From Gemmatimonadota bacterium (GTDB lineage: Bacteria; Gemmatimonadota; Gemmatimonadetes; Longimicrobiales; Longimicrobiaceae), in the NCBI GenBank assembly GCA_019240375.1, contig JAFAYN010000207.1, positions 1 through 10,361 of the forward strand: a DNA stretch of 10,361 bases, read 5' to 3'. The notes beneath the pieces are model-generated. The model saw only the letters and a list, made by a program, of their open reading frames with translations. It searched no databases and had not been told where the DNA came from. A program made the position numbers and the translations under genes. Below are positions 2,003-9,843 of this stretch, piece by piece (the first letter of the stretch is position 1; the number at the start of each line of letters is the position of its first letter).

Positions 2003-3365
2003 GCGAAGCCGCGAAGATCCTCGTCATCGACGACGAGACCGCCATCATCGACACCCTGCGCATCCTGCTGAAGCGCGAGGGGTTCGAGGTACACACCGCC
2101 ATCGGCGGGAGGGAGGGGCTGGAGCGCCTGGGCGAGGTCCGCCCCGACGTGGTGCTGTCGGATGTGCGGATGCCGGGGGTGGGAGGGCTGGAGATCCTGA
2201 TGGCCGCCCGGGAGCTGGACCCCACCCTCCCGGTGATCCTGATGACGGCGCAGGCGTCGCTCCAGACGGCGATCCGCGCGGTCAACGAGGGCGCCTTCTA
2301 CTACATCCAGAAGCCCTTCGCCAACGACGAGCTGGTCGCCATCTGTCGACGCGCCGCCGAGTCGCGACAGCTCAAGGTGGAGAACCAGGCGCTCAAGAGC
2401 GAGATCCGCCGGCGCGACCGCTCCGACACCATCCGCCCCATCGGCAAGAGCCGGCGCTTCCTGGACGTGCTGCGCATGGCCGAGACGGTGGCTCCCACCG
2501 ACTCCACGGTGCTGATCACCGGCGAGTCGGGGACGGGGAAGGAAGTGCTGTCGCGCTACCTGCACGAGCGCTCGGAGCGCGTCGACGGCCCGTTCGTCTC
2601 CATCAACTGCGGCGCCCTCCCGGAAACGCTGCTGGAGTCCGAATTGTTCGGGCACGTGAAGGGCTCCTTCACCGGCGCGGTGCGCGACAAGCAGGGGCTG
2701 TTCGTGGCGGCGCGCGGCGGGACCTTCTTCCTGGACGAGGTGGGAGAGATGTCCCCCGCCATCCAGGTCAAGCTCCTCCGCGCGCTGCAGGAGCGGGAGG
2801 TGATCCCGGTGGGGGCCACGGAGACGATCCCGGTGGACGTGCGGATCATCGCCGCCACCAACAAGGACCTGGAGGAGGAGATCCGCCGCGGCAACTTCCG
2901 CAGCGACCTGTACTACCGCCTCAACGTGATCACCCTGCTCCTCCCGCCGCTCCGCGACCGCGCCGAGGACGTCCCCATCCTGGCCGACTACTTCCTGCAG
3001 CGCTTCGCCGGGTCGCGGGGCAAGGAGGTCGCGCGCCTTTCCCCGGACGCCCTCGCCGCGCTGCAGGCGTACGAGTGGCCGGGGAACGTGCGCGAGCTGG
3101 AGAACGCCCTGGAAAGAGCGGTGGTGCTCACCCCCGACGGCGAGATCCCCCCTCCGCCTTCCCGACGCGAATCACGGAGCGGGTGGTGGAGCCGCTGGTG
3201 TCGGACCGGCTCCCGCCCAACCCGACGCTGGAGATCATCGAGCGGGCGTACATCTTCTGGGTGCTCCAGTCGGAGGGGGGCAACAAGTCCCGCGCCGCCG
3301 AGGTGCTGGGGATCGATCCGTCCACGCTGTACCGGAAGCTGATGCGCTACGGGATGGAAGCGTAA
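1999..3365 (+). CDS. PilR/NtrC-family sigma54-dependent response regulator, frameshifted before its HTH
   Basis: An enhancer-binding activator that remodels sigma54 RNA polymerase by ATP hydrolysis after phosphorylation by the upstream kinase. GTG 1999 overlaps the kinase stop (GTGA), with AGGAG at 1984-1988, so translation is coupled. Receiver domain: residues 1-120, with acidic pair Asp11/Asp12, phospho-acceptor Asp55, Thr83 and Lys105. AAA+ domain: about 147-370, with Walker A GESGTGKE (175-182), sigma54-contact loop GSFTGA (222-227, the serine variant of GAFTGA) and Walker [11 protein letters not shown]. The Fis-type HTH ([19 protein letters not shown]) is in the -1 frame. The reading frame breaks at the six-C run 3147-3152. 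One extra C restores a continuous 455-residue protein, the usual family length. Read without a shift, the frame ends at 3342 with about 64 unrelated residues and no DNA-binding domain. This could be a base-call error, a true mutation or slippage. The DKQGLF context after GSFTGA resembles PilR. Confidence 0.87.
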
Positions 3366-3382
3366 GACAGGTTACAGGGGAC
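3366..3382 (+). repeat. Post-stop motif, copy 1 (after the sigma54 activator)
   Basis: GACAGGTTACAGGGGAC begins at the first base after the TAA stop. The same motif follows rpoD at 7419 and, on the minus strand, smc at 9843. Its role is unknown. It has internal direct-repeat character (ACAGGTTACAGG). Confidence 0.75.
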
Positions 3383-3409
3383 GGTCTCCGACTGCGGGGC
3401 CCTCACCCC

Positions 3410-3462: not shown

Positions 3463-3634
3463 GTTCCGCTGTTCGCAGTTCCCGCAGTACCCACCAAATC
3501 TTGGCGGAGGGAGACCAGCGGGGCTGTTTCCGACGGGCTCACTCCGCGGGCGGGGAGACTGCCGGTAGTTTGGCAGGCTCACCGACCCCGCGCAGGAGAC
3601 CGGCCGCAGTTTGGCCGGGCTCCGGAGCGGCCCC
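3463..3634 (+). repeat. Triple-hairpin intergenic element, copy 1 (plus orientation)
   Basis: A leading tract has GTTCC/GTTCG/GTTCCC/GTACCC at 3463, 3471, 3478 and 3487, then a small hairpin CCAA-ATC-TTGG (3494-3504). Three stem-loops follow. H1 3506-3545: outer GGAG-G-GAG / CTC-A-CTCC; the inner stem has two mismatches and the loop is GGCTGTTTC. H2 3551-3584: CGG-G-GAG-A-CTGCC, loop GGTAGTTT, GGCAG-G-CTC-A-CCG. H3 3595-3623: GGAG-A-CCGGCC, loop GCAGTTT, GGCCGG-G-CTCC. The element ends with GGAGCGGCCCC. It lies 3' of the two-component operon, and its last hairpin ends 45 bp before the -35 box of the aldehyde dehydrogenase promoter. The family is not one I recognise. Confidence 0.8.
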
Positions 3635-3668
3635 ACCCCACCATACCCGAAGCAAATCACACCACCGG

Positions 3669-3697
3669 TTGGCAGCAGCACACGGAGCGCGTACATT
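3669..3697 (+). promoter_or_regulatory. Sigma70-type promoter for the aldehyde dehydrogenase
   Basis: TTGGCA (3669-3674) and TACATT (3692-3697) are separated by 17 bp, matching the consensus at 5/6 and 4/6 positions. Transcription would start near 3704, leaving a leader of about 60 nt before ATG 3764. The promoter sits after repeat copy 1, so the repeat would not be in this mRNA. Confidence 0.55.
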
Positions 3698-3763
3698 CAC
3701 CGCATCCGTGACGTAAAAAGCACCCTACCGAGACCTCTCCTGCAACCGACCGGGAAAACGAGC

Positions 3764-5263
3764 ATGGCGGAAAAGCACAAGAACTTCATCGGTGGCGAGT
3801 GGGTGGAGCCCGCCACCGGCGAATACTTCGAGAACCGGAACCCCGCGCGCCAGTCGGACCTGATCGGCCTGTGGCCCCGCTCCGGCAGGGAAGACGTGGA
3901 GCACGCCGTCGCGGCCGCGAAGAAAGGGTTCGAGACCTGGCGCCTGACCCCGGCCCCCGAGCGCGGCGCCATCCTCAAGCAGGTGGGCGACCTGCTGGTG
4001 GAGCGCAAGGACGAGATCGCCCGCGCCGCCACCCGCGAGATGGGGAAGACCGTCGCAGAGACCCGCGGCGACGTGCAGGAGGGGATCGACACCGCCTACT
4101 ATGCCGCCACCGAGGGACGCCGCCTGTTCGGGCACACCGTCCCCTCGGAACTGCGCAGCAAGTGGGCGATGAGCTTCCGCCGCCCCATCGGGATCTGCGG
4201 GCTGATCACCCCGTTCAACTTCCCGCTCGCCATCCCCACCTGGAAGATGTTCCCCGCGCTGGTGTGCGGGAACAGCGTCATCATCAAGCCGGGCGAGGAC
4301 GTCCCCCACACCGTCGAGCTGCTGGTGGAGGTGCTGGAGGAGGCGGGGATCCCGAAGGGGGTCGTCAACCTCGTCCAGGGGTTCGGCGAGGAGGTCGGTG
4401 ACGTGATCGTCCGCCACCCCGACGTCCCGGTGATCTCCTTCACCGGCTCCACGGAGACGGGGAAGATCGTCGGGCGGGTGTGCGGCGAGATGCACAAGCG
4501 CCTGTCGCTGGAGATGGGCGGCAAGAACGCGCAGATCGTCATGGCCGACGCGGACATGGACCTGGCGCTGGACGGGGTGCTGTGGGGCGCCTTCGGGACC
4601 ACCGGACAGCGCTGCACCGCCACCTCGCGCCTCCTCCTCCAGGACGAGATCCACGACCAGTTCGTGGAGAGCCTGACCGCCCGCGCCCGCCAGCTCAAGC
4701 TGGGCTACGGGGCCGACGAAGGGGTGGACGTGGGGCCGCTGGTGAGCGCCGCCTCGCGCGAGAAGGTGGAGCGCTACATGGAGATCGGGCGGCAGGAGGC
4801 CGAGCTGGTGCTGGGCGGCGAGCGCGCCACCGGCGAGGGGCTGGACGACGGCTTCTTCTTCCAGCCGACCATCTTCACCGGGGTGAAGCCCGGCTCGCGG
4901 CTCGCCACCGAGGAGATCTTCGGGCCGGTGCTGTCGGTGATCCGCTTCTCGGACGCGGACGAGGCCTTCCGGATCAACAACGAGGTGAAGTACGGGCTGT
5001 CGAGCTCCGTCTACACCCGCGACGTGAACGTCTCGTTCCGCGCCTTCCAGGAGCTGGACAACGGGATCACCTACGTCAACGCCCCCACCATCGGGGCCGA
5101 GGCGCACCTCCCCTTCGGCGGGGTGAAGCAGACGGGGAACGGCCACCGCGAGGGCGGCTGGGAGGTGTACGAGTTCTACTCCGAGACCAAGGTGGGCTAC
5201 CTGGACTACTCCGGGAAGCTGCAGCGCGCCCAGATCGACAATTACGAAGCCTCCCCCTACTGA
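3764..5263 (+). CDS. NAD(P)-dependent aldehyde dehydrogenase (KGSADH/YcbD-like)
   Basis: A 499-residue cytoplasmic enzyme that oxidises an aldehyde to a carboxylate with NAD(P)+. All hallmarks of the ALDH superfamily are present: PFNFP with oxyanion Asn152, IIKPGE with cofactor-binding Lys175, the FTGSTETG turn at 226-233, general base Glu250 in LEMGGKN, catalytic Cys284 in GQRCTATSR, and EEIFGPVL (383-390), which contacts the nicotinamide ribose. The C-terminal PFGGVKQTGNGHREGG is typical of the group containing alpha-ketoglutaric semialdehyde dehydrogenase and Bacillus YcbD, but the substrate cannot be fixed from sequence. ATG 3764 is chosen because the protein then begins MAEKHKNFIGGEWV, the family's normal start. 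The frame stays open back to 3611, but that part overlaps the promoter and repeat copy 1 and reads as low-quality sequence. The Shine-Dalgarno is weak. The gene is monocistronic: its own promoter is upstream and a palindromic hairpin lies 17 nt downstream. Confidence 0.93.
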   Translation: MAEKHKNFIGGEWVEPATGEYFENRNPARQSDLIGLWPRSGREDVEHAVAAAKKGFETWRLTPAPERGAILKQVGDLLVERKDEIARAATREMGKTVAETRGDVQEGIDTAYYAATEGRRLFGHTVPSELRSKWAMSFRRPIGICGLITPFNFPLAIPTWKMFPALVCGNSVIIKPGEDVPHTVELLVEVLEEAGIPKGVVNLVQGFGEEVGDVIVRHPDVPVISFTGSTETGKIVGRVCGEMHKRLSLEMGGKNAQIVMADADMDLALDGVLWGAFGTTGQRCTATSRLLLQDEIHDQFVESLTARARQLKLGYGADEGVDVGPLVSAASREKVERYMEIGRQEAELVLGGERATGEGLDDGFFFQPTIFTGVKPGSRLATEEIFGPVLSVIRFSDADEAFRINNEVKYGLSSSVYTRDVNVSFRAFQELDNGITYVNAPTIGAEAHLPFGGVKQTGNGHREGGWEVYEFYSETKVGYLDYSGKLQRAQIDNYEASPY

Positions 5264-5280
5264 GGCACCCCCGCCCCGTT

Positions 5281-5310
5281 CTGGTGCACGGACGCGCGTC
5301 CGTGCACCAG
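5281..5310 (+). terminator. Perfect 30-bp palindrome, probable terminator hairpin
   Basis: A fully self-complementary sequence. The 13-nt arm CTGGTGCACGGAC, a GCGC centre and the exact reverse complement form a hairpin with a 4-nt loop. It lies 17 nt after the aldehyde dehydrogenase stop. There is no strong T tract (GCGTTTCCC follows). A transcription terminator is most likely; a dimeric-protein binding site is possible. The rest of the gap to 5524 shows no confident promoter. Confidence 0.6.
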
Positions 5311-5524
5311 GCGTTTCCCTCCCCACGGCGCGGAAACCCCACGCCACGCCTCTGCTCCCGCGGTCCGATTCCTGCGGGCCGGTTCCGGTGTCCGGGCCTC
5401 TTTCGCGCCGGAGCGGGCGGAGGAACGACCCCTTCCCTGCCGTGTAGGAACTCGGGTCCACCCGCCGGATCGGCGTGTTTCCCGCTTCGTCGCTTTCAAG
5501 CGCTCACGGGCGCGTAAGAGTGCC

Positions 5525-6322
5525 ATGGACAGCATCCCTCAGGGCCAGTCCGGAGAGCTTCCCTACCCCCGCATCCCCTCGGAGCGCGTCTTCGAGGAGC
5601 ACCGCCGGCTCGCGGAAGAGAGCCGCGGCTCCATCTCGACGGGGCGGTGGATGTGGGAGTGGGTCAAGGCGATCTCCACGGCGATCCTCCTTTTCCTGGT
5701 GGTGCGCACCTTCGTGGTGGAAGCCTTCAAGATCCCCACGGGGTCGATGGAGCGGACGCTCCTGGTGGGCGACTTCCTCCTGGTGAACAAGGCGGTGTAC
5801 GGGGCCGAGGTCCCCTACACGCACACGCACCTCCCGGCGTTCTCGGAGCCGTCGCGCGGGGACGTGATCGTCTTCCTCCCGCCGCACGACCCCACCAAGA
5901 ACTACGTCAAGCGGCTGATCGGCCTCCCCGGCGACACGCTGGAGATGCACGACAAGGTGCTGTATCTCGACGGCAAGCCGCAGCCCGAGCCGTACGTGCG
6001 GCACATCGACCCGATCACCGACCCGGGAGACCCGCAGATGATGTGGCAGCTCTCCTACCTGGCCGGCGGCGAGGGCGCGCAGCGCTACTACCACCCGACG
6101 CGCGACAACTGGGGCCCCATCGTGGTGCCGCCCGGGAAGTACTTCGCGCTGGGCGACAACCGGGACAACTCCGAGGACTCGCGCTACTGGGGCTTCCTGG
6201 ACAAGGAGGCGATCAAGGGACGGCCGATCCTGGTGTACTATTCGTTCGAGCGGGACGTGGCCCACCCCTTCTCGTGGGTGACCGGGGTGCGCTGGACGAG
6301 GATCGGGAGCATGATCCACTAA
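5525..6322 (+). CDS. lepB: Signal peptidase I
   Basis: A 265-residue membrane serine protease that removes signal peptides from Sec- and Tat-exported proteins on the outer face of the cytoplasmic membrane. A cytoplasmic N-terminus of about 45 residues precedes one transmembrane helix (about 47-66). The catalytic Ser74 is in box B, IPTGSMERTL. The general base Lys129 is in box D, YVKRLIGLPGD. Box E, GDNRDNSEDSR (210-220), is intact. The region at about 164-192, between boxes D and E, is the usual variable beta-rich section. Only one TM helix is seen, as in Gram-positive and many other bacterial forms, rather than the two of E. coli LepB. ATG 5525 is preceded by a modest AAGAG; it is the first start in frame that gives a typical N-terminus. 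A 10-bp hairpin follows, and rpoD beyond it has its own promoter, so the two are probably separate units. Confidence 0.95.
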   Translation: MDSIPQGQSGELPYPRIPSERVFEEHRRLAEESRGSISTGRWMWEWVKAISTAILLFLVVRTFVVEAFKIPTGSMERTLLVGDFLLVNKAVYGAEVPYTHTHLPAFSEPSRGDVIVFLPPHDPTKNYVKRLIGLPGDTLEMHDKVLYLDGKPQPEPYVRHIDPITDPGDPQMMWQLSYLAGGEGAQRYYHPTRDNWGPIVVPPGKYFALGDNRDNSEDSRYWGFLDKEAIKGRPILVYYSFERDVAHPFSWVTGVRWTRIGSMIH

Positions 6323-6335
6323 GCGGCCGACCGCT

Positions 6336-6361
6336 CCGACCGGGACAAGCTTCCCGGTCGG
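6336..6361 (+). terminator. Hairpin after lepB
   Basis: A perfect 10-bp stem CCGACCGGGA / TCCCGGTCGG with loop CAAGCT, 13 nt after the lepB stop. There is no U tract. It ends only 4 nt before the -35 box of the rpoD promoter, so it may insulate rpoD from lepB read-through. Confidence 0.5.
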
Positions 6362-6365
6362 GGGG

Positions 6366-6394
6366 TTGACACCTCCGTGCAAGTCGCACATACT
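6366..6394 (+). promoter_or_regulatory. Sigma70-type promoter for rpoD
   Basis: A perfect -35 TTGACA (6366-6371), a 17-bp spacer and CATACT (6389-6394, 4/6 match). Transcription would begin near 6401, giving a long leader of about 155 nt before ATG 6556. This is the best promoter match in the window and is consistent with autoregulation of the primary sigma factor. Confidence 0.65.
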
Positions 6395-6555
6395 CCAACC
6401 GTGATATTGCGTACCTGCGGGATCCCTCCTCCCGTTCGCGCATCTCGTCTCCTTTCCGGCCGGTTCCGTCGCCGCCCAACGTAGCGCCGCTCGGCGCATC
6501 GTGCGCCGGATCCCCCGCGCCCTCTCCTCATCCGTTCCGTCTCCCGGAGCCCCGC

Positions 6556-7413
6556 ATGAGCATCCGCGCCCCCAAGAAGATCTCCGTCGAGTCCGAGTCC
6601 CTGGACCAGTACCTCCGCGAGATCAGCGCGTATCCACTCATCGACCGGGAGGAAGAGGCGAACCTGGCCCGGCGCATCCGCGTCGGGGAGAGCGAAGCCC
6701 TGGAGGCGCTGGTCCGCTCCAACCTCCGCTTCGTGGTCGCGGTCGCCAAGAAGTACCAGAACCAGGGCGTCTCGCTGGCCGACCTGATCAACGAGGGGAA
6801 CATCGGGCTGATCCGGGCGGCGCGGAAGTTCGACGAGACCAAGGGAATCAAGTTCATCTCGTACGCGGTCTGGTGGATCCGTCAGGCGATCCTCCAGGCG
6901 CTCGCCGAGCAGTCGCGCATCGTGCGCGTCCCGCTCAGCCGGGCCGGCGCGGTGCACCGGATCGGGAAGCGTTCGTCGGCGCTGACGCAGGAGCTGGGGC
7001 GTGAGCCGACGCTGGAGGAGATCGCGGGGGAGCTGGACCTCCCCGCCGACGAGATCAGCCACACCCTGGCGATGTCGCAGGTCCACCTCTCGCTCGACGC
7101 GCCGCTGGTGGCGGGAGAGGACGGGCAGCTCCTGGACTACCTGTCGGACCAGGGCTCGGCGGGGCCGGACGAGGAGGTGTACGGGCAGGCGCTGAAGCGC
7201 ACCATCGACGACGCGCTCTCCACCCTGACCGAGCGCGAGGCCAAGGTGCTCCGCCTCTACTTCGGTCTGGGGGACACGGAGCCGATGACGCTGGAGCAGA
7301 TCGGGGAGATGTTCGGGATCACGCGCGAGCGGGTGCGGCAGATCAAGGAAAAGGCGCTGCTCCGCCTGCGGCACCAGTCGCGGGCCCGCTTCCTGGAAAC
7401 GTACCTGACCTGA
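6556..7413 (+). CDS. rpoD: RNA polymerase primary sigma factor (short RpoD/SigA type)
   Basis: A 285-residue sigma70 factor that directs RNA polymerase to housekeeping promoters. Region 1.2 is at about 14-46 (SLDQYLREISAYPLI). Region 2 is at about 50-120 with the core-binding and melting segment (NLRFVVAVAKKYQNQG, DLINEGNIGLI) and -10 recognition helix FISYAVWWIRQAI (100-112). Region 3 is at about 130-200. Region 4 is at about 217-280 with the -35 HTH (TLEQIGEMFGITRERVRQIKEK). There is no region 1.1 and no long non-conserved insert, so the protein is less than half the length of E. coli RpoD. This short form is typical of Bacteroidota and relatives, including Gemmatimonadota, where it is the primary factor. 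A group 2 paralogue cannot be excluded. ATG 6556 has GGAG at 6546-6549, 6 nt upstream. The gene has its own promoter and a Rho-independent terminator downstream. Confidence 0.93.
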   Translation: MSIRAPKKISVESESLDQYLREISAYPLIDREEEANLARRIRVGESEALEALVRSNLRFVVAVAKKYQNQGVSLADLINEGNIGLIRAARKFDETKGIKFISYAVWWIRQAILQALAEQSRIVRVPLSRAGAVHRIGKRSSALTQELGREPTLEEIAGELDLPADEISHTLAMSQVHLSLDAPLVAGEDGQLLDYLSDQGSAGPDEEVYGQALKRTIDDALSTLTEREAKVLRLYFGLGDTEPMTLEQIGEMFGITRERVRQIKEKALLRLRHQSRARFLETYLT

Positions 7414-7418
7414 GAGGG

Positions 7419-7437
7419 GACAGGTTACAGGGGACAG
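7419..7437 (+). repeat. Post-stop motif, copy 2 (after rpoD)
   Basis: GACAGGTTACAGGGGACAG starts 5 nt after the rpoD stop. The bases around it make a direct repeat: GGGGACAG, GTTACA, GGGGACAG. It is identical over 17 bp to the motif after the sigma54 activator at 3366. Confidence 0.75.
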
Positions 7438-7443
7438 CCTGCT

Positions 7444-7461
7444 GGCCTTCGCGCGAGGGCC
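7444..7461 (+). other. Hairpin in the rpoD 3' UTR
   Basis: GGCCTTC-GCGC-GAGGGCC forms a 7-bp stem with one G-T wobble, between the post-stop motif and the terminator. It may protect the mRNA 3' end; the function is not known. Confidence 0.35.
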
Positions 7462-7500
7462 GGCGCCGCACGCCCCCATCCGGCTCGCTTGGGCTCGCCA

Positions 7501-7530
7501 CCTTCCCCCAATTCTGGGGGAAGGCTTTTT
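7501..7530 (+). terminator. Rho-independent terminator of rpoD
   Basis: A perfect 9-bp stem CCTTCCCCC / GGGGGAAGG with a 6-nt loop, AATTCT, followed by CTTTTTG. It is the only classical U-tract terminator in the window. Confidence 0.85.
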
Positions 7531-7540
7531 GTTGTTCGTC

Positions 7541-7699
7541 GTTCCGCCGTTCCCTGCCGTTCCCACATGATGTGCGGAGGGAGACCACGGCAGTATCGTG
7601 GGCTCACTCCGAGGACGGGGAGACTGCCAGTAGTTCCGGCAGGCTCACCGGCCCCGCGGAAGAGACGGACAGTAGTATCGTCCGGCTCTGGAGCGGCCC
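7541..7699 (+). repeat. Triple-hairpin intergenic element, copy 2 (plus orientation)
   Basis: A leading GTTCC/GTTCCC tract (7541, 7549, 7559) is followed by a small hairpin CACA-TGA-TGTG (7564-7574). H1 7576-7610: GGAG-G-GAG-A-CCACG, loop GCAGTAT, CGTGG-G-CTC-A-CTCC. H2 7616-7650: CGG-G-GAG-A-CTGCC, loop AGTAGTTCC, GGCAG-G-CTC-A-CCG. H3 7662-7688: GAG-A-CGGAC, loop AGTAGTATC, GTCCG-G-CTC. It ends with GGAGCGGCCC (7690-7699). This is the cleanest copy. It lies between the convergent rpoD and yraN, 10 bp after the rpoD terminator U tract, so rpoD transcription should mostly stop before it. Confidence 0.85.
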
Positions 7700-7722
7700 G
7701 CCAGGACACGCAAAACCCGACG

Positions 7723-8112
7723 TCACATCCGCCAGGCGTCCTCCACGTGCTCCACGACCGGCTCCCCGCCACCGAGCACCAGCACCGCGACCGCATCGAA
7801 CCGGTACACGTCCCCGTCACGCCCGTACCGCTCCACCCACGCCGCCGCCACCTGCTGGATCTCCCGCCGCTTCTTCCAGGTGATGGCTTCCAAAGGGTGC
7901 CCATACCCACGCCCCGCCCGCGTCTTCACCTCCACGAACGCGACGACCTCACCGCGGCGCGCGACGAGGTCGATCTCCTTCCGGCCCATGCGGAAGTTGC
8001 GGTTCAGGACGGTCCACCCCCGCTCCGAAAGGTGCCGGGCGGCAAGCTCCTCCCCCCGGTCCCCGAGCGGCTTCCCCGAAGGACGCGCCGGCCGACGAGG
8101 CGATTCCTCCAC
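7723..8112 (-). CDS. yraN: YraN family (UPF0102) endonuclease-fold protein
   Basis: A 129-residue protein of the UPF0102/YraN family, whose members have a Holliday-junction-resolvase/restriction-endonuclease-like fold; the cellular role is not established. The family motifs appear in order: GDRGEELAARHLSERGW near the N-terminus, RNFRMGRKEIDLVAR with candidate metal ligands Glu46 and Asp48, and VAFVEVKTR with Glu61 and Lys63, together the E-x-D...E-V-K nuclease signature. The length is normal for the family (about 120-130). The start is GTG at 8110-8112, with only a weak GGGG-type ribosome site. It lies 19 nt after aroF on the same strand and is probably co-transcribed from the aroF promoter. 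Its 3' end faces repeat copy 2 and rpoD; no terminator of its own is obvious. The family is clear; DNA cleavage activity is inferred from the fold. Confidence 0.9.
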   Translation of the reverse strand: MEESPRRPARPSGKPLGDRGEELAARHLSERGWTVLNRNFRMGRKEIDLVARRGEVVAFVEVKTRAGRGYGHPLEAITWKKRREIQQVAAAWVERYGRDGDVYRFDAVAVLVLGGGEPVVEHVEDAWRM

Positions 8113-8131
8113 GAAAGCCCCGGCGGGAAGA

Positions 8132-9172
8132 CTAACGGGCCGCCGCCAGGGACGGGCTGATCGTGCGCCCGATGGCCTCGGCGATGGTCCCGATCTGCTG
8201 CATCATCTCCCCGAACTGGTCCGGGTACAGCGACTGCGCCCCGTCCGACATCGCCCGCTCCGGGTCCGGGTGCACCTCCACCATCAGCCCGTCCGCACCG
8301 GCGGCCACCGCGGCGCGCGCCATGGGGATCACCTTGGCGCGGACCCCGGTCCCGTGGCTCGGGTCGGCGATGATCGGGAGGTGCGAGAGCGACTGCACCA
8401 CCGGGATGGCGGTCAGGTCGAGCAGGTTGCGCGTCTGCGTGTCGAAGCTGCGCACCCCGCGCTCGCACAGGATCACCTGGCGGTTCCCCTCGGCCAGGAT
8501 GTACTCGGCCGACATCAGGAACTCGGTGATGGTGGCCGACATCCCGCGCTTCAGCAGGACCGGCTTCCCCGAGCGCCCGGCGTGCCGCAGCAGCGAGAAG
8601 TTCTGCATGTTGCGCGCGCCGATCTGGATGATGTCGGCGTACTTCGCCACCAGCGCCAGGCTTTCCGGGTCGATCGCCTCGGTGACGATCGCCATCCCGG
8701 TCTCCTCGCGGGCGCGGGCCAGCAGCTTCAGCCCCTCCTCGCCCATCCCCTGGAACGAGTACGGCGAGGTGCGAGGCTTGAAGGCGCCGCCGCGCAGGAT
8801 GGTGGCGCCCGCGTCGCGCAGCCGGTGTGCGATCCCCAGGATCTGCGCCTCCGACTCCACCGAGCAGGGGCCGGCCATCACCACCACCTCGCCGGCTCCG
8901 ATGCGGGTGCCGTTGGCGAGCTCCACGATGGTGGGCTCCGGCGACCACTCACGGGAGACCTGCTTGTAGGGCTGGGACACGTGGATGACCTGCATCACGC
9001 CGGGGAGCGCCTCGATCCGGTCCGCCGGCACCTTGCCGTCGTTGCCGATCAGGCCGATGGCGGTGCGCTGCTTCCCGGGGATCGGGCAGGCCTCGTAGCC
9101 GAGCTCATGTATGGTGTCGACGACGCCCTGGACCTCGTCCTCGGAGGCGTCGTGCCGCATGACGACAAGCAT
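8132..9172 (-). CDS. aroF: 3-deoxy-7-phosphoheptulonate (DAHP) synthase, class I beta with N-terminal regulatory domain
   Basis: A 346-residue enzyme catalysing the first step of the shikimate pathway: phosphoenolpyruvate plus erythrose 4-phosphate gives DAHP, leading to Phe, Tyr and Trp. Residues 1-70 (MLVVMRHDASEDEVQG...) form the ferredoxin-like/ACT-type domain of Thermotoga-type enzymes, which mediates feedback inhibition in studied members. The TIM-barrel catalytic domain follows, with MAGPCSVES (metal ligand Cys103), LRGGAFKPRTSPYSFQG (substrate phosphate site), IGARNMQNF, LLKRG, DPSHGTG (His273), MVEVH (Glu299) and SDGAQS (Asp310). All four metal ligands are present. ATG 9170-9172 gives the family's normal N-terminus; the ribosome site is weak. 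It is the first gene of a two-gene operon with yraN and has its own promoter. An inverted repeat over the -10 box suggests transcriptional control in addition to any allosteric control. E. coli-type symbols (aroF/G/H) do not map exactly onto this subclass. Confidence 0.95.
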   Translation of the reverse strand: MLVVMRHDASEDEVQGVVDTIHELGYEACPIPGKQRTAIGLIGNDGKVPADRIEALPGVMQVIHVSQPYKQVSREWSPEPTIVELANGTRIGAGEVVVMAGPCSVESEAQILGIAHRLRDAGATILRGGAFKPRTSPYSFQGMGEEGLKLLARAREETGMAIVTEAIDPESLALVAKYADIIQIGARNMQNFSLLRHAGRSGKPVLLKRGMSATITEFLMSAEYILAEGNRQVILCERGVRSFDTQTRNLLDLTAIPVVQSLSHLPIIADPSHGTGVRAKVIPMARAAVAAGADGLMVEVHPDPERAMSDGAQSLYPDQFGEMMQQIGTIAEAIGRTISPSLAAAR

Positions 9173-9202
9173 GGTGAACCGTGCGCCGGGTGCGTTTGTT
9201 TA

Positions 9203-9232
9203 GGTGCTGAAGTGCCGTGAAAGTATAGCACC
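9203..9232 (-). promoter_or_regulatory. Candidate operator: inverted repeat over the aroF -10 box
   Basis: GGTGCT (9203-9208) and AGCACC (9227-9232) form a 6-bp inverted repeat with 24 bp between arm centres. One arm abuts and overlaps the -10 hexamer and the other lies just past the start site. The spacing would suit a dimeric repressor. The regulator is unknown and the site is inferred only from symmetry and position. Confidence 0.3.
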
Positions 9233-9250
9233 TTGGGGCTTTGGAGTGAA
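9222..9250 (-). promoter_or_regulatory. Sigma70-type promoter for the aroF-yraN operon
   Basis: Reading the minus strand: TTCACT (9250-9245), a 17-bp spacer, TATACT (9227-9222). The matches are 4/6 and 5/6. Transcription would start near 9215, giving a leader of about 43 nt before ATG 9172. Confidence 0.6.
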
Positions 9251-9268
9251 GTACGTGGTGTTTGTGTG

Positions 9269-9430
9269 GGGGCCGCTCCAGAGCCGGACGATACTGCCGT
9301 CCGTCTCTTCCGCGGGGCCGGTGAGCCTCACGAAACTACCGTGAGTCTCCCCGTCCTCGGAGTGAGCCCGCGATACAGCCGTGGTCTCCCTCCGTACATC
9401 TTCCGGGAACTACGGGGAACGGCGGGGAAC
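9269..9430 (-). repeat. Triple-hairpin intergenic element, copy 3 (minus orientation)
   Basis: Read on the minus strand, the element has GTTCCC at 9430, 9420 and 9410, then H1 9393-9359 (GGAG-G-GAG-A-CCACG, loop GCTGTAT, CGCGG-G-CTC-A-CTCC, one A/C mismatch), H2 9353-9319 (CGG-G-GAG-A-CTCACG, loop GTAGTTT, CGTGAG-G-CTC-A-CCG) and H3 9307-9281 (GAG-A-CGGAC, loop GGCAGTATC, GTCCG-G-CTC), ending GGAGCGGCCCC. The H2 stem differs from copies 1 and 2 on both sides, which preserves pairing. It sits between divergent genes and points at aroF, 30 bp before the aroF -35 box. Confidence 0.85.
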
Positions 9431-9538: not shown

Positions 9539-9742
9539 ATGAGGAAGAAGCTGATGCTGCTGTCCGCGCTGGTCTGCATCGCCGGGAGTACGGACCTGCT
9601 GGCCGGGACGCGCGCACTCACGCCGTGCGAGTCCCTGCGCGGCCAGCGGTGCAGCCCGAACGGCGCCCTGACCGCCTGCACGGACCCGTATGGGGAGAAC
9701 GTGCCGATGGCCTGCACCAGCGGCACCTGGCAGTACATCTGA
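9539..9742 (+). CDS. Small secreted cysteine-containing protein, function unknown
   Basis: A 67-residue protein with a clear Sec signal peptide: MRKK, then the hydrophobic core LMLLSALVCIAG, with probable cleavage after about residue 22 (DLLAG). The mature part of about 45 residues has four cysteines (30, 38, 47, 59), enough for two disulfides, and ends TSGTWQYI. ATG 9539 is chosen because it has a strong ribosome site (AGGAGAGG, 9528-9535) at good spacing and begins the signal peptide. The frame stays open upstream to 9233, but that part runs through repeat copy 3 and has no ribosome site. It has its own promoter and is followed by a 12-bp hairpin, so it is probably a single-gene unit. It would be exported and processed by a signal peptidase such as the LepB in this window. 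I do not recognise a family; a secreted structural or signalling peptide is possible. Confidence 0.75.
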   Translation: MRKKLMLLSALVCIAGSTDLLAGTRALTPCESLRGQRCSPNGALTACTDPYGENVPMACTSGTWQYI

Positions 9743-9811: not shown

Positions 9812-9824
9812 CCGTCGTCGCAGG

Positions 9825-9843
9825 CTGTCCCCTGTAACCTGTC
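9825..9843 (-). repeat. Post-stop motif, copy 3 (after smc)
   Basis: On the minus strand GACAGGTTACAGGGGACAG begins 5 nt after the smc stop codon (TAG, 9851-9849). It is identical over 19 bp to the copy after rpoD and in the same orientation relative to the gene. Confidence 0.75.

Follow-up and report, generated by a model that had tools for sequence, protein, structure and literature searches.

What are the structured repeats that lie between the genes of a 10,361-nt contig (JAFAYN010000207.1; hereafter, the window) from a Gemmatimonadota bacterium of the family Longimicrobiaceae? A preliminary description, made from the letters alone, proposed three intergenic copies of a three-hairpin element and left three options for its nature: a modular structured RNA, a protein-binding stem-loop array, or a mobile non-autonomous element. 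Our analysis shows that the element is real, that it is widespread within part of one family with no named match in what was searched, and that its architecture is unlike that of the repeat classes with which we compared it. The mobile option fits best, given the lineage-specific high copy number, the mosaic copies, and two empty syntenic sites. More specifically, we hold it about evenly balanced that this is a non-autonomous, interspersed mobile repeat of new architecture, similar to repetitive extragenic palindromes (REPs) and bacterial interspersed mosaic elements (BIMEs), which works as a folded single strand, perhaps of single-stranded DNA (ssDNA).

Direct inspection of the sequence, a blastn-type search, and a covariance model all place the three copies where they were first proposed, and on the same strands. 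Their cores span 3505-3630 (+), 7575-7696 (+), and 9273-9394 (-), and the corresponding model matches are 3496-3634 (E = 6.1e-19), 7566-7700 (E = 5.4e-25), and 9269-9403 (E = 5.7e-24). Each unit comprises a 5' box, three tandem hairpins (H1 to H3) that all run in one direction and, in the source genome (G000), an unpairable, A/C-rich 3' tail; the three-hairpin unit measures about 110-220 nt. The hairpin plan (GAGAC, arm, loop, complementary arm, GGCTC) agrees with the original outline, as do its A·G and G·A mismatches and the stems that change on both sides, and the inner H1 mismatches of copies 1 and 3 are genuine. The loop is indeed conserved, but its consensus, given initially as GYAGTWTY, is better written GYNGTWY, with the third base free. 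The 5' box (GCNGTWYCC) and the A/C-rich tail are additional to that plan, and stem length, too, varies among genomes. The parts found in the window are given below; boxes rest on sequence and box statistics, hairpins on sequence and the covariance model, tails on flank composition, and the terminator-like hairpin on upstream-flank analysis.

3484-3492 (+): copy 1, 5' box GCAGTACCC, carrying the motif of the hairpin loops
3505-3546 (+): copy 1, H1; inner arm CCAGCGG/CCGACGG, with two mismatches
3548-3587 (+): copy 1, H2 (CTGCC/GGCAG)
3588-3630 (+): copy 1, H3 (CCGGCC/GGCCGG), ending in GCGG
3631-3665 (+): copy 1, A/C-rich tail
7501-7530 (+): terminator-like hairpin with a T run, a separate repeat upstream of copy 2
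7546-7554 (+): copy 2, box 1, GCCGTTCCC
7556-7564 (+): copy 2, box 2, GCCGTTCCC again, in a 10-nt register
7575-7611 (+): copy 2, H1 (CCACG/CGTGG)
7613-7653 (+): copy 2, H2 (CTGCC/GGCAG)
7654-7696 (+): copy 2, H3 (CGGAC/GTCCG), with the GNA/GGA internal loop
7697-7722 (+): copy 2, A/C-rich tail, reaching the stop codon of a convergent gene that we take to be YraN-like
9405-9423 (-): copy 3, two 5' boxes
9358-9394 (-): copy 3, H1 (CCACG/CGCGG, one A·C)
9316-9356 (-): copy 3, H2 (CTCACG/CGTGAG)
9273-9315 (-): copy 3, H3 (CGGAC/GTCCG)
9238-9272 (-): copy 3, tail, A/C-rich on the element strand

The source genome, a 632-contig assembly that is 62% complete, contains many more copies. The blastn-type search with copy 2 gave 40 matches (the 40 scored of 114 first-look candidates), a covariance model built from 31 source-genome sequences gave 116 at E ≤ 1, including weak matches and opposite-strand shadows, and a broader model built from 60 copies gave 93 at E ≤ 0.05. 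With this broader model, the element was found in 7 of the 21 genomes of the window's family, i.e., in the source genome and six relatives. It is present at high copy in four of them (93 matches in G000, 54 in G006, 34 in G007, and 21 in its congener G001) and at low copy in three more (3 in G008, 2 in G004, and 1 in G015). The same 7 genomes, all of this family, were the only ones to match in an even sample of 395 genomes across the phylum; that search applied stricter filters and was limited to 7 scored first-look candidates in each genome, such that weak or single diverged copies may be missed. Neither the window nor five loci from relatives had an Rfam family match above the gathering score, and a known RNA family was rejected on that basis. 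Copy 2 had no match in plasmid and phage collections. A first sequence pattern found nothing in IMG/VR, and the two matches to a second pattern are not matched by the covariance model and look like chance, so a viral origin was rejected. Over genome contigs, a first exact pattern likewise returned no match, and a second returned 24 stretches from only two Gemmatimonadetes metagenome-assembled genomes. Literature searches uncovered no published description, so the family remains undescribed as far as searched.

Across copies, a small set of features is held nearly constant. An A·G mismatch separates GAG/CTC from the inner stem in 81, 79, and 79 of 82 source-genome copies (H1, H2, and H3, respectively) and in 83, 85, and 83 of 88 aligned rows from relatives. 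The GNA/GGA internal loop of H3 shows its G·A in 81/82 and its A·G in 81/82 source-genome copies, and in 85/88 and 86/88 rows from relatives. The loop motif was scored in the 57 of 83 source-genome copies that passed the H1 filter of an earlier parse, and it is present in 57, 57, and 56 of them, against 9% of shuffled segments. The corresponding counts are 22, 21, and 22 of 22 copies in G007 and 9, 9, and 9 of 10 in G001; in G006, the motif is found in 18/31 (H1), 31/31 (H2), and 29/31 (H3), and the one parsed G008 copy has it in H3 only. Many of the 13 parsed G006 copies without the H1 motif hold a long variable insert there (e.g., loci L193, L197, and L200). Relative to the high-copy genomes, the arms in G004 (L064, L069) are much shorter, with tiny loops from which the motif is absent by eye, and those in G008 (L065, L242, L244) are longer.

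The same motif forms the 5' box: 51 of the 57 source-genome copies have it in the 60 nt preceding H1, and 29 have two, mostly at 19-22 and 29-31 nt, against an expectation of 0.04 per 55 nt. Among relatives, it was found in 7/10 (G001), 14/31 (G006), 12/22 (G007), and 0/1 (G008) copies, and there it may form the left edge of the element. In the alignments, the feet of the element read GCGGAGG-like and GCGGYCC. Loops are spaced 38-43 nt apart in G000 and G001 and mostly 52-60 nt (a few 63-74 nt) in G006 and G007; these spacings are not phased, and we therefore rejected double-stranded protein sites in helical phase. A protein-binding stem-loop array is plausible.

In marked contrast to this frame, the stems change, and they do so on both sides. 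In a model-fitted alignment of 60 copies from six genomes (alignments A2-A5 were likewise fitted to the model), 93.6% of cells pair, both sides have changed in 27 of 40 pairs (15.3 in shuffles), 264 cells are changed on both sides (77.5 in shuffles), and the covariation score is 0.284 versus 0.081 in shuffles and ≤0.048 in slid controls; each of the five measures lies above all 500 shuffles. Within 31 source-genome copies, the score is 0.142 versus 0.066, a value that none of 500 shuffles reached, although further pair types are no more numerous than under shuffling (19 versus 18.7; 275/500). The stems thus covary, as the preliminary description claimed. RNAfold z-scores are modest (near -1.8 for the GAGAC strand and between -3.0 and -3.5 for the opposite strand), so it is the comparison across copies, and not single-copy folding energy, that carries the case.

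How the stems change is informative. An alignment-free count over cleaned parsed hairpins gave 3218 Watson-Crick, 48 G·T, 5 A·C, and 66 other cells; it excludes 9 of 144 parsed copies (low score), weak-stem hairpins, and the loop-closing pair, and inner-stem counts also exclude H2 of G006, G007, G008, and G015 and the outer H1 positions of CCGNAG-type variants. G·T thus makes up 48/3337 cells, under 2%, which is unlike the residue of stepwise compensation through G·U. The 351 hairpins contain 30 distinct 5-nt arms, the first five inner pairs are all Watson-Crick in 278, and some arms are common to more than one hairpin position. Arm types of H1, H2, and H3 are independent of one another among 70 cleaned source-genome copies (shuffle P = 0.78, 0.16, and 0.31), which hold 40 arm combinations, i.e., a mosaic of exchangeable modules as in a BIME; these counts come from the cleaned parser since earlier ones mis-split some copies. 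The same arm was never seen in two hairpins of one copy, where about 4.4 cases are expected (seven comparisons summed); none of the seven is significant alone, and the avoidance of equal arms is only suggestive. In addition, at a site common to the congeners (C521 in G000, C417 in G001), where the flanking genes are conserved, all three arms differ on both sides, which could mean that an old copy had its arms replaced or, less probably, that the two insertions were independent. Collectively, the covariation looks mostly like whole-arm replacement among copies rather than stepwise compensation.

Mobility of the element is supported by presence and absence at syntenic sites, of which two are empty in the congener and one is shared. 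Between matched flanks, the congener has 59 bp where the source genome has about 500 bp (C53 versus C351) and 250 bp where it has about 527 bp (C55 versus C521); the ends of these differences are not base-exact. At the window's own YraN/DAHP and sigma/ALDH loci, the stretches read in G001 hold no element, but with different neighbor genes they do not count as clean empty sites; for locus L130, the flanks did not map together in G001.

Comparison with known systems places the element nearest to REPs and BIMEs. REPs are 20-40-bp palindromes tagged GTAG or CGTC (PMC3733652). The element shares with REPs and BIMEs its high copy number, its intergenic, species-specific, and mosaic character, its frequent position near gene ends (PMC3733652, PMC8266576), and a stem mismatch and loop of the kind that can serve as recognition features (PMC8266576). 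It differs in having three one-direction hairpins with fixed loops, free stems, and an A/C tail, where a REP is a single palindrome. Its feet, read from the alignments rather than by a tag search, carry no GTAG or CGTC, and GTAG occurs only inside some loops. With no tagged 20-40-bp palindrome, and with no REP-associated tyrosine transposase (RAYT; Y1_Tnp) in the carriers G000, G001, and G004 that the repeat could flank as in a REPtron, it does not match a REP-type family in these two features. Mobilization as a REP by a RAYT was rejected on the missing tag and the lack of correlation with the transposase family PF01797 (Y1_Tnp), which is present in 13 of the 21 family genomes, including several element-free relatives. 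With the relatives of IS200/IS605 single-strand transposons that resemble miniature inverted-repeat transposable elements (MITEs), the element shares same-direction hairpins whose loop and mismatch would lend themselves to recognition as a single strand, but it is built of three hairpins and not of two ends, cleavage sites were not identified, and three carrier genomes have no Y1 transposase. BOX, ERIC, and NEMIS repeats are also intergenic, structured, and roughly 100-200 bp long, and BOX is modular, but their sequence and plan are different; to our knowledge, cassette-like arm exchange under a fixed frame has not been described for any of them. Structured RNAs in Rfam share covarying stems and conserved loops, whereas this element matches no family, has about 90 copies in one genome, and is inconsistently oriented. 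In G007, one locus (L226, contig C83) holds two elements about 390 bp apart, at 2176-2344 (-) and 2731-2902 (+), with their leaders facing, like a BIME pair.

High copy number, intergenic position, mosaic structure, and narrow range are what lead us to a REP/BIME lifestyle. The element would work as a single strand with its three hairpins folded, most likely as ssDNA exposed at replication, in which one protein would read the loop and mismatch of each hairpin; the same protein would move the element or fix it in intergenic DNA. We infer such single-strand recognition by analogy: single-strand transposases and the REP transposase TnpA-REP read loops and stem mismatches (PMC8266576), and these are what stays fixed here. 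Perfect pairing of the arms would be maintained through template switching and gene conversion among copies, not through compensatory changes made step by step. A template switch can alter the two sides of a stem in a single event (PMC8794818), and block-wise arm change with rare wobble intermediates fits such switching; alone, switching cannot explain why the mismatch and loop persist. Pressed further, these observations suggest that the arms may be interchangeable cassettes under a near-invariant frame that a single protein reads three times, with template switching or conversion rewriting both sides of an arm in one step, a tentative proposal that we think rather less than probable as a whole.

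Several results weigh against a mobile repeat working as a folded single strand. No transposase was found traveling with the element: Y1_Tnp is absent from the carriers G000 (62% complete), G001, and G004, and among the matches listed, no contig has an element and a Y1 match less than 50 kb apart. Terminal repeats were not found either, and the extra DNA at the empty sites also includes other repeats, so neither site shows a clean single insertion. The site shared with the congener indicates that at least some copies are old. A preponderance of G·T relative to A·C inside stems, together with the A/C tail and the lack of equal arms within a copy, would also suit a transcribed RNA. Lastly, the bias toward convergent genes in the source genome (37 sites versus 4 divergent) is not seen in G006 (3 versus 5) and is not clear in G001 (2 versus 1) or G007 (5 versus 2).

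The flanks bear on the alternatives. In the source genome, the roughly 25 nt past the hairpins are 80% A+C, and the fraction exceeds 50% in 83/83 copies (lowest, 0.64); at 114 element-free stop codons, the matching measure has a median of 0.52 and exceeds 0.5 in 63. Where no gene lies nearer, the A+C fraction drops past 35 nt, from about 0.75-0.9 to about 0.55-0.7, whichever way the next gene runs. The tail is weak in G006 and G007 (0.61-0.79 over the first 25 nt). An intrinsic terminator was rejected because T reaches only 0.01-0.11 per 5-nt bin in the 35 nt past the hairpins (G000). Nothing is conserved beyond the 3' end, the most frequent downstream 8-mer occurring in 21/83 copies.

None of the 83 parsed source-genome copies overlaps a predicted gene (gene calls come from our own simple codon model, not from annotation; context and flank statistics use the earlier parse, in which 3' ends are sound and H1 starts less so). 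Of the 71 with both neighbors, 37 are convergent, 30 tandem, and 4 divergent. The other tandem counts are 15 antisense and 2 sense in G006, 8 and 10 in G007, and 5 and 5 in G001; neither the convergent nor the tandem-orientation bias is general across carriers. Given sense:antisense ratios of 15:15, 5:5, 2:15, and 10:8 at tandem sites in G000, G001, G006, and G007, respectively, placement has no fixed relation to transcription.

A structured RNA, in which the GAGAC strand is transcribed, three identically tipped hairpins bind a protein (a CsrB-type or MS2-type array), and the pyrimidine-rich leader and A/C tail prevent misfolding, is a serious but unlikely alternative. Strong covariation, the nearly invariant H3 internal loop, the absence of equal arms within a copy, and a tail that, in the source genome, runs for about 35 nt whatever the strand of the neighboring gene all argue for it, as does the in-stem count of 48 G·T versus 5 A·C cells. 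The wobble evidence is, however, divided. Distinct pair types inside stems number only 12 G·T versus 5 A·C (p = 0.14), G·U is scarce, and the loop-closing pair is often A·C on the GAGAC strand: an earlier parse gave 27 G·T versus 59 A·C cells when it was kept, and 97 versus 16 when the two innermost pairs were dropped. Model-fitted alignments gave 60 versus 16 and 26 versus 73, with 68 of those 73 A·C cells from one column that is probably no pair. In-stem wobble thus favors the GAGAC strand, and loop-closing pairs and RNAfold z-scores favor the opposite one, so the evidence on the sense strand points both ways, in line with the preliminary description. Inconsistent orientation to genes also speaks against a transcribed RNA, as does the lack of a consensus sigma-70-type promoter near copy 2, a weak test of one scanned stretch.

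The opposite strand could instead act at mRNA 3' ends, just past stop codons, where it would protect or terminate the mRNA of a convergent gene. The downstream gene is opposed in 59 of the 80 G000 copies that have one, with its stop codon 15-34 nt from the hairpins in 42 of the 59, and the excess of convergent sites agrees; this strand has the better z-scores, the loop-closing A·C would be G·U on it, and REPs, too, lie mostly between convergent or tandem genes (PMC3733652). We nevertheless think it improbable, because the leader sequences show no following T run on that strand, the downstream gene is co-oriented in 21 G000 copies, the convergent bias is absent in G006, and in-stem wobble indicates the other strand. 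The stems could also be a mutational by-product, i.e., passive repeat DNA whose inverted repeats template switching keeps perfect without structural selection. Template switching can create and repair stems in one step (PMC8794818), and the arms do change in blocks with few intermediates, but passive correction should erase a mismatch, and the A·G mismatch is kept with the loop in nearly all copies, in all three hairpins, while the arms change; tail composition is also held in every source-genome copy. This explanation appears the most improbable of all.

Covariation is usually taken as proof of a selected RNA, whereas in this element entire arms seem to be exchanged in blocks. The family therefore allows a direct test of how much covariation arises from template switching or conversion and how much from stepwise selection, and it is a natural test case for the evolution of paired stems and for what reads them. 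If the cassette proposal is true, the element would represent a new class of mobile structured element, and the >200 paralogous hairpins in one genome would record how "compensatory" change arises. A little-studied phylum gains a high-copy repeat class with this element, which may point to a single-strand reader of loop and A·G mismatch.

Other repeats and genes accompany the element. Upstream of it in G000, other hairpin repeats are common, including the terminator-like hairpin with a T run. A second repeat (GACAGGTTACAGGGGAC...) lies in the same intergenic regions of the window, at 3366-3390, 7419-7442, and 9820-9843, the last copy being inverted, and its 10-mers recur upstream of 12-14 of 83 source-genome copies. 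The copy pattern also brought integron attC sites, with IntI core sites and a cassette array, under consideration; to our reading, the window's neighbor genes have the appearance of ordinary chromosomal genes. One of them, which we read as an NtrC-like response regulator gene, is apparently frameshifted at about 3140-3165, with its C-terminal helix-turn-helix region in another frame (3075-3365), owing to either an assembly error or a real change. Adjoining copy 3, a predicted 67-residue small protein (9539-9742, +) has a start that by eye resembles a signal peptide.

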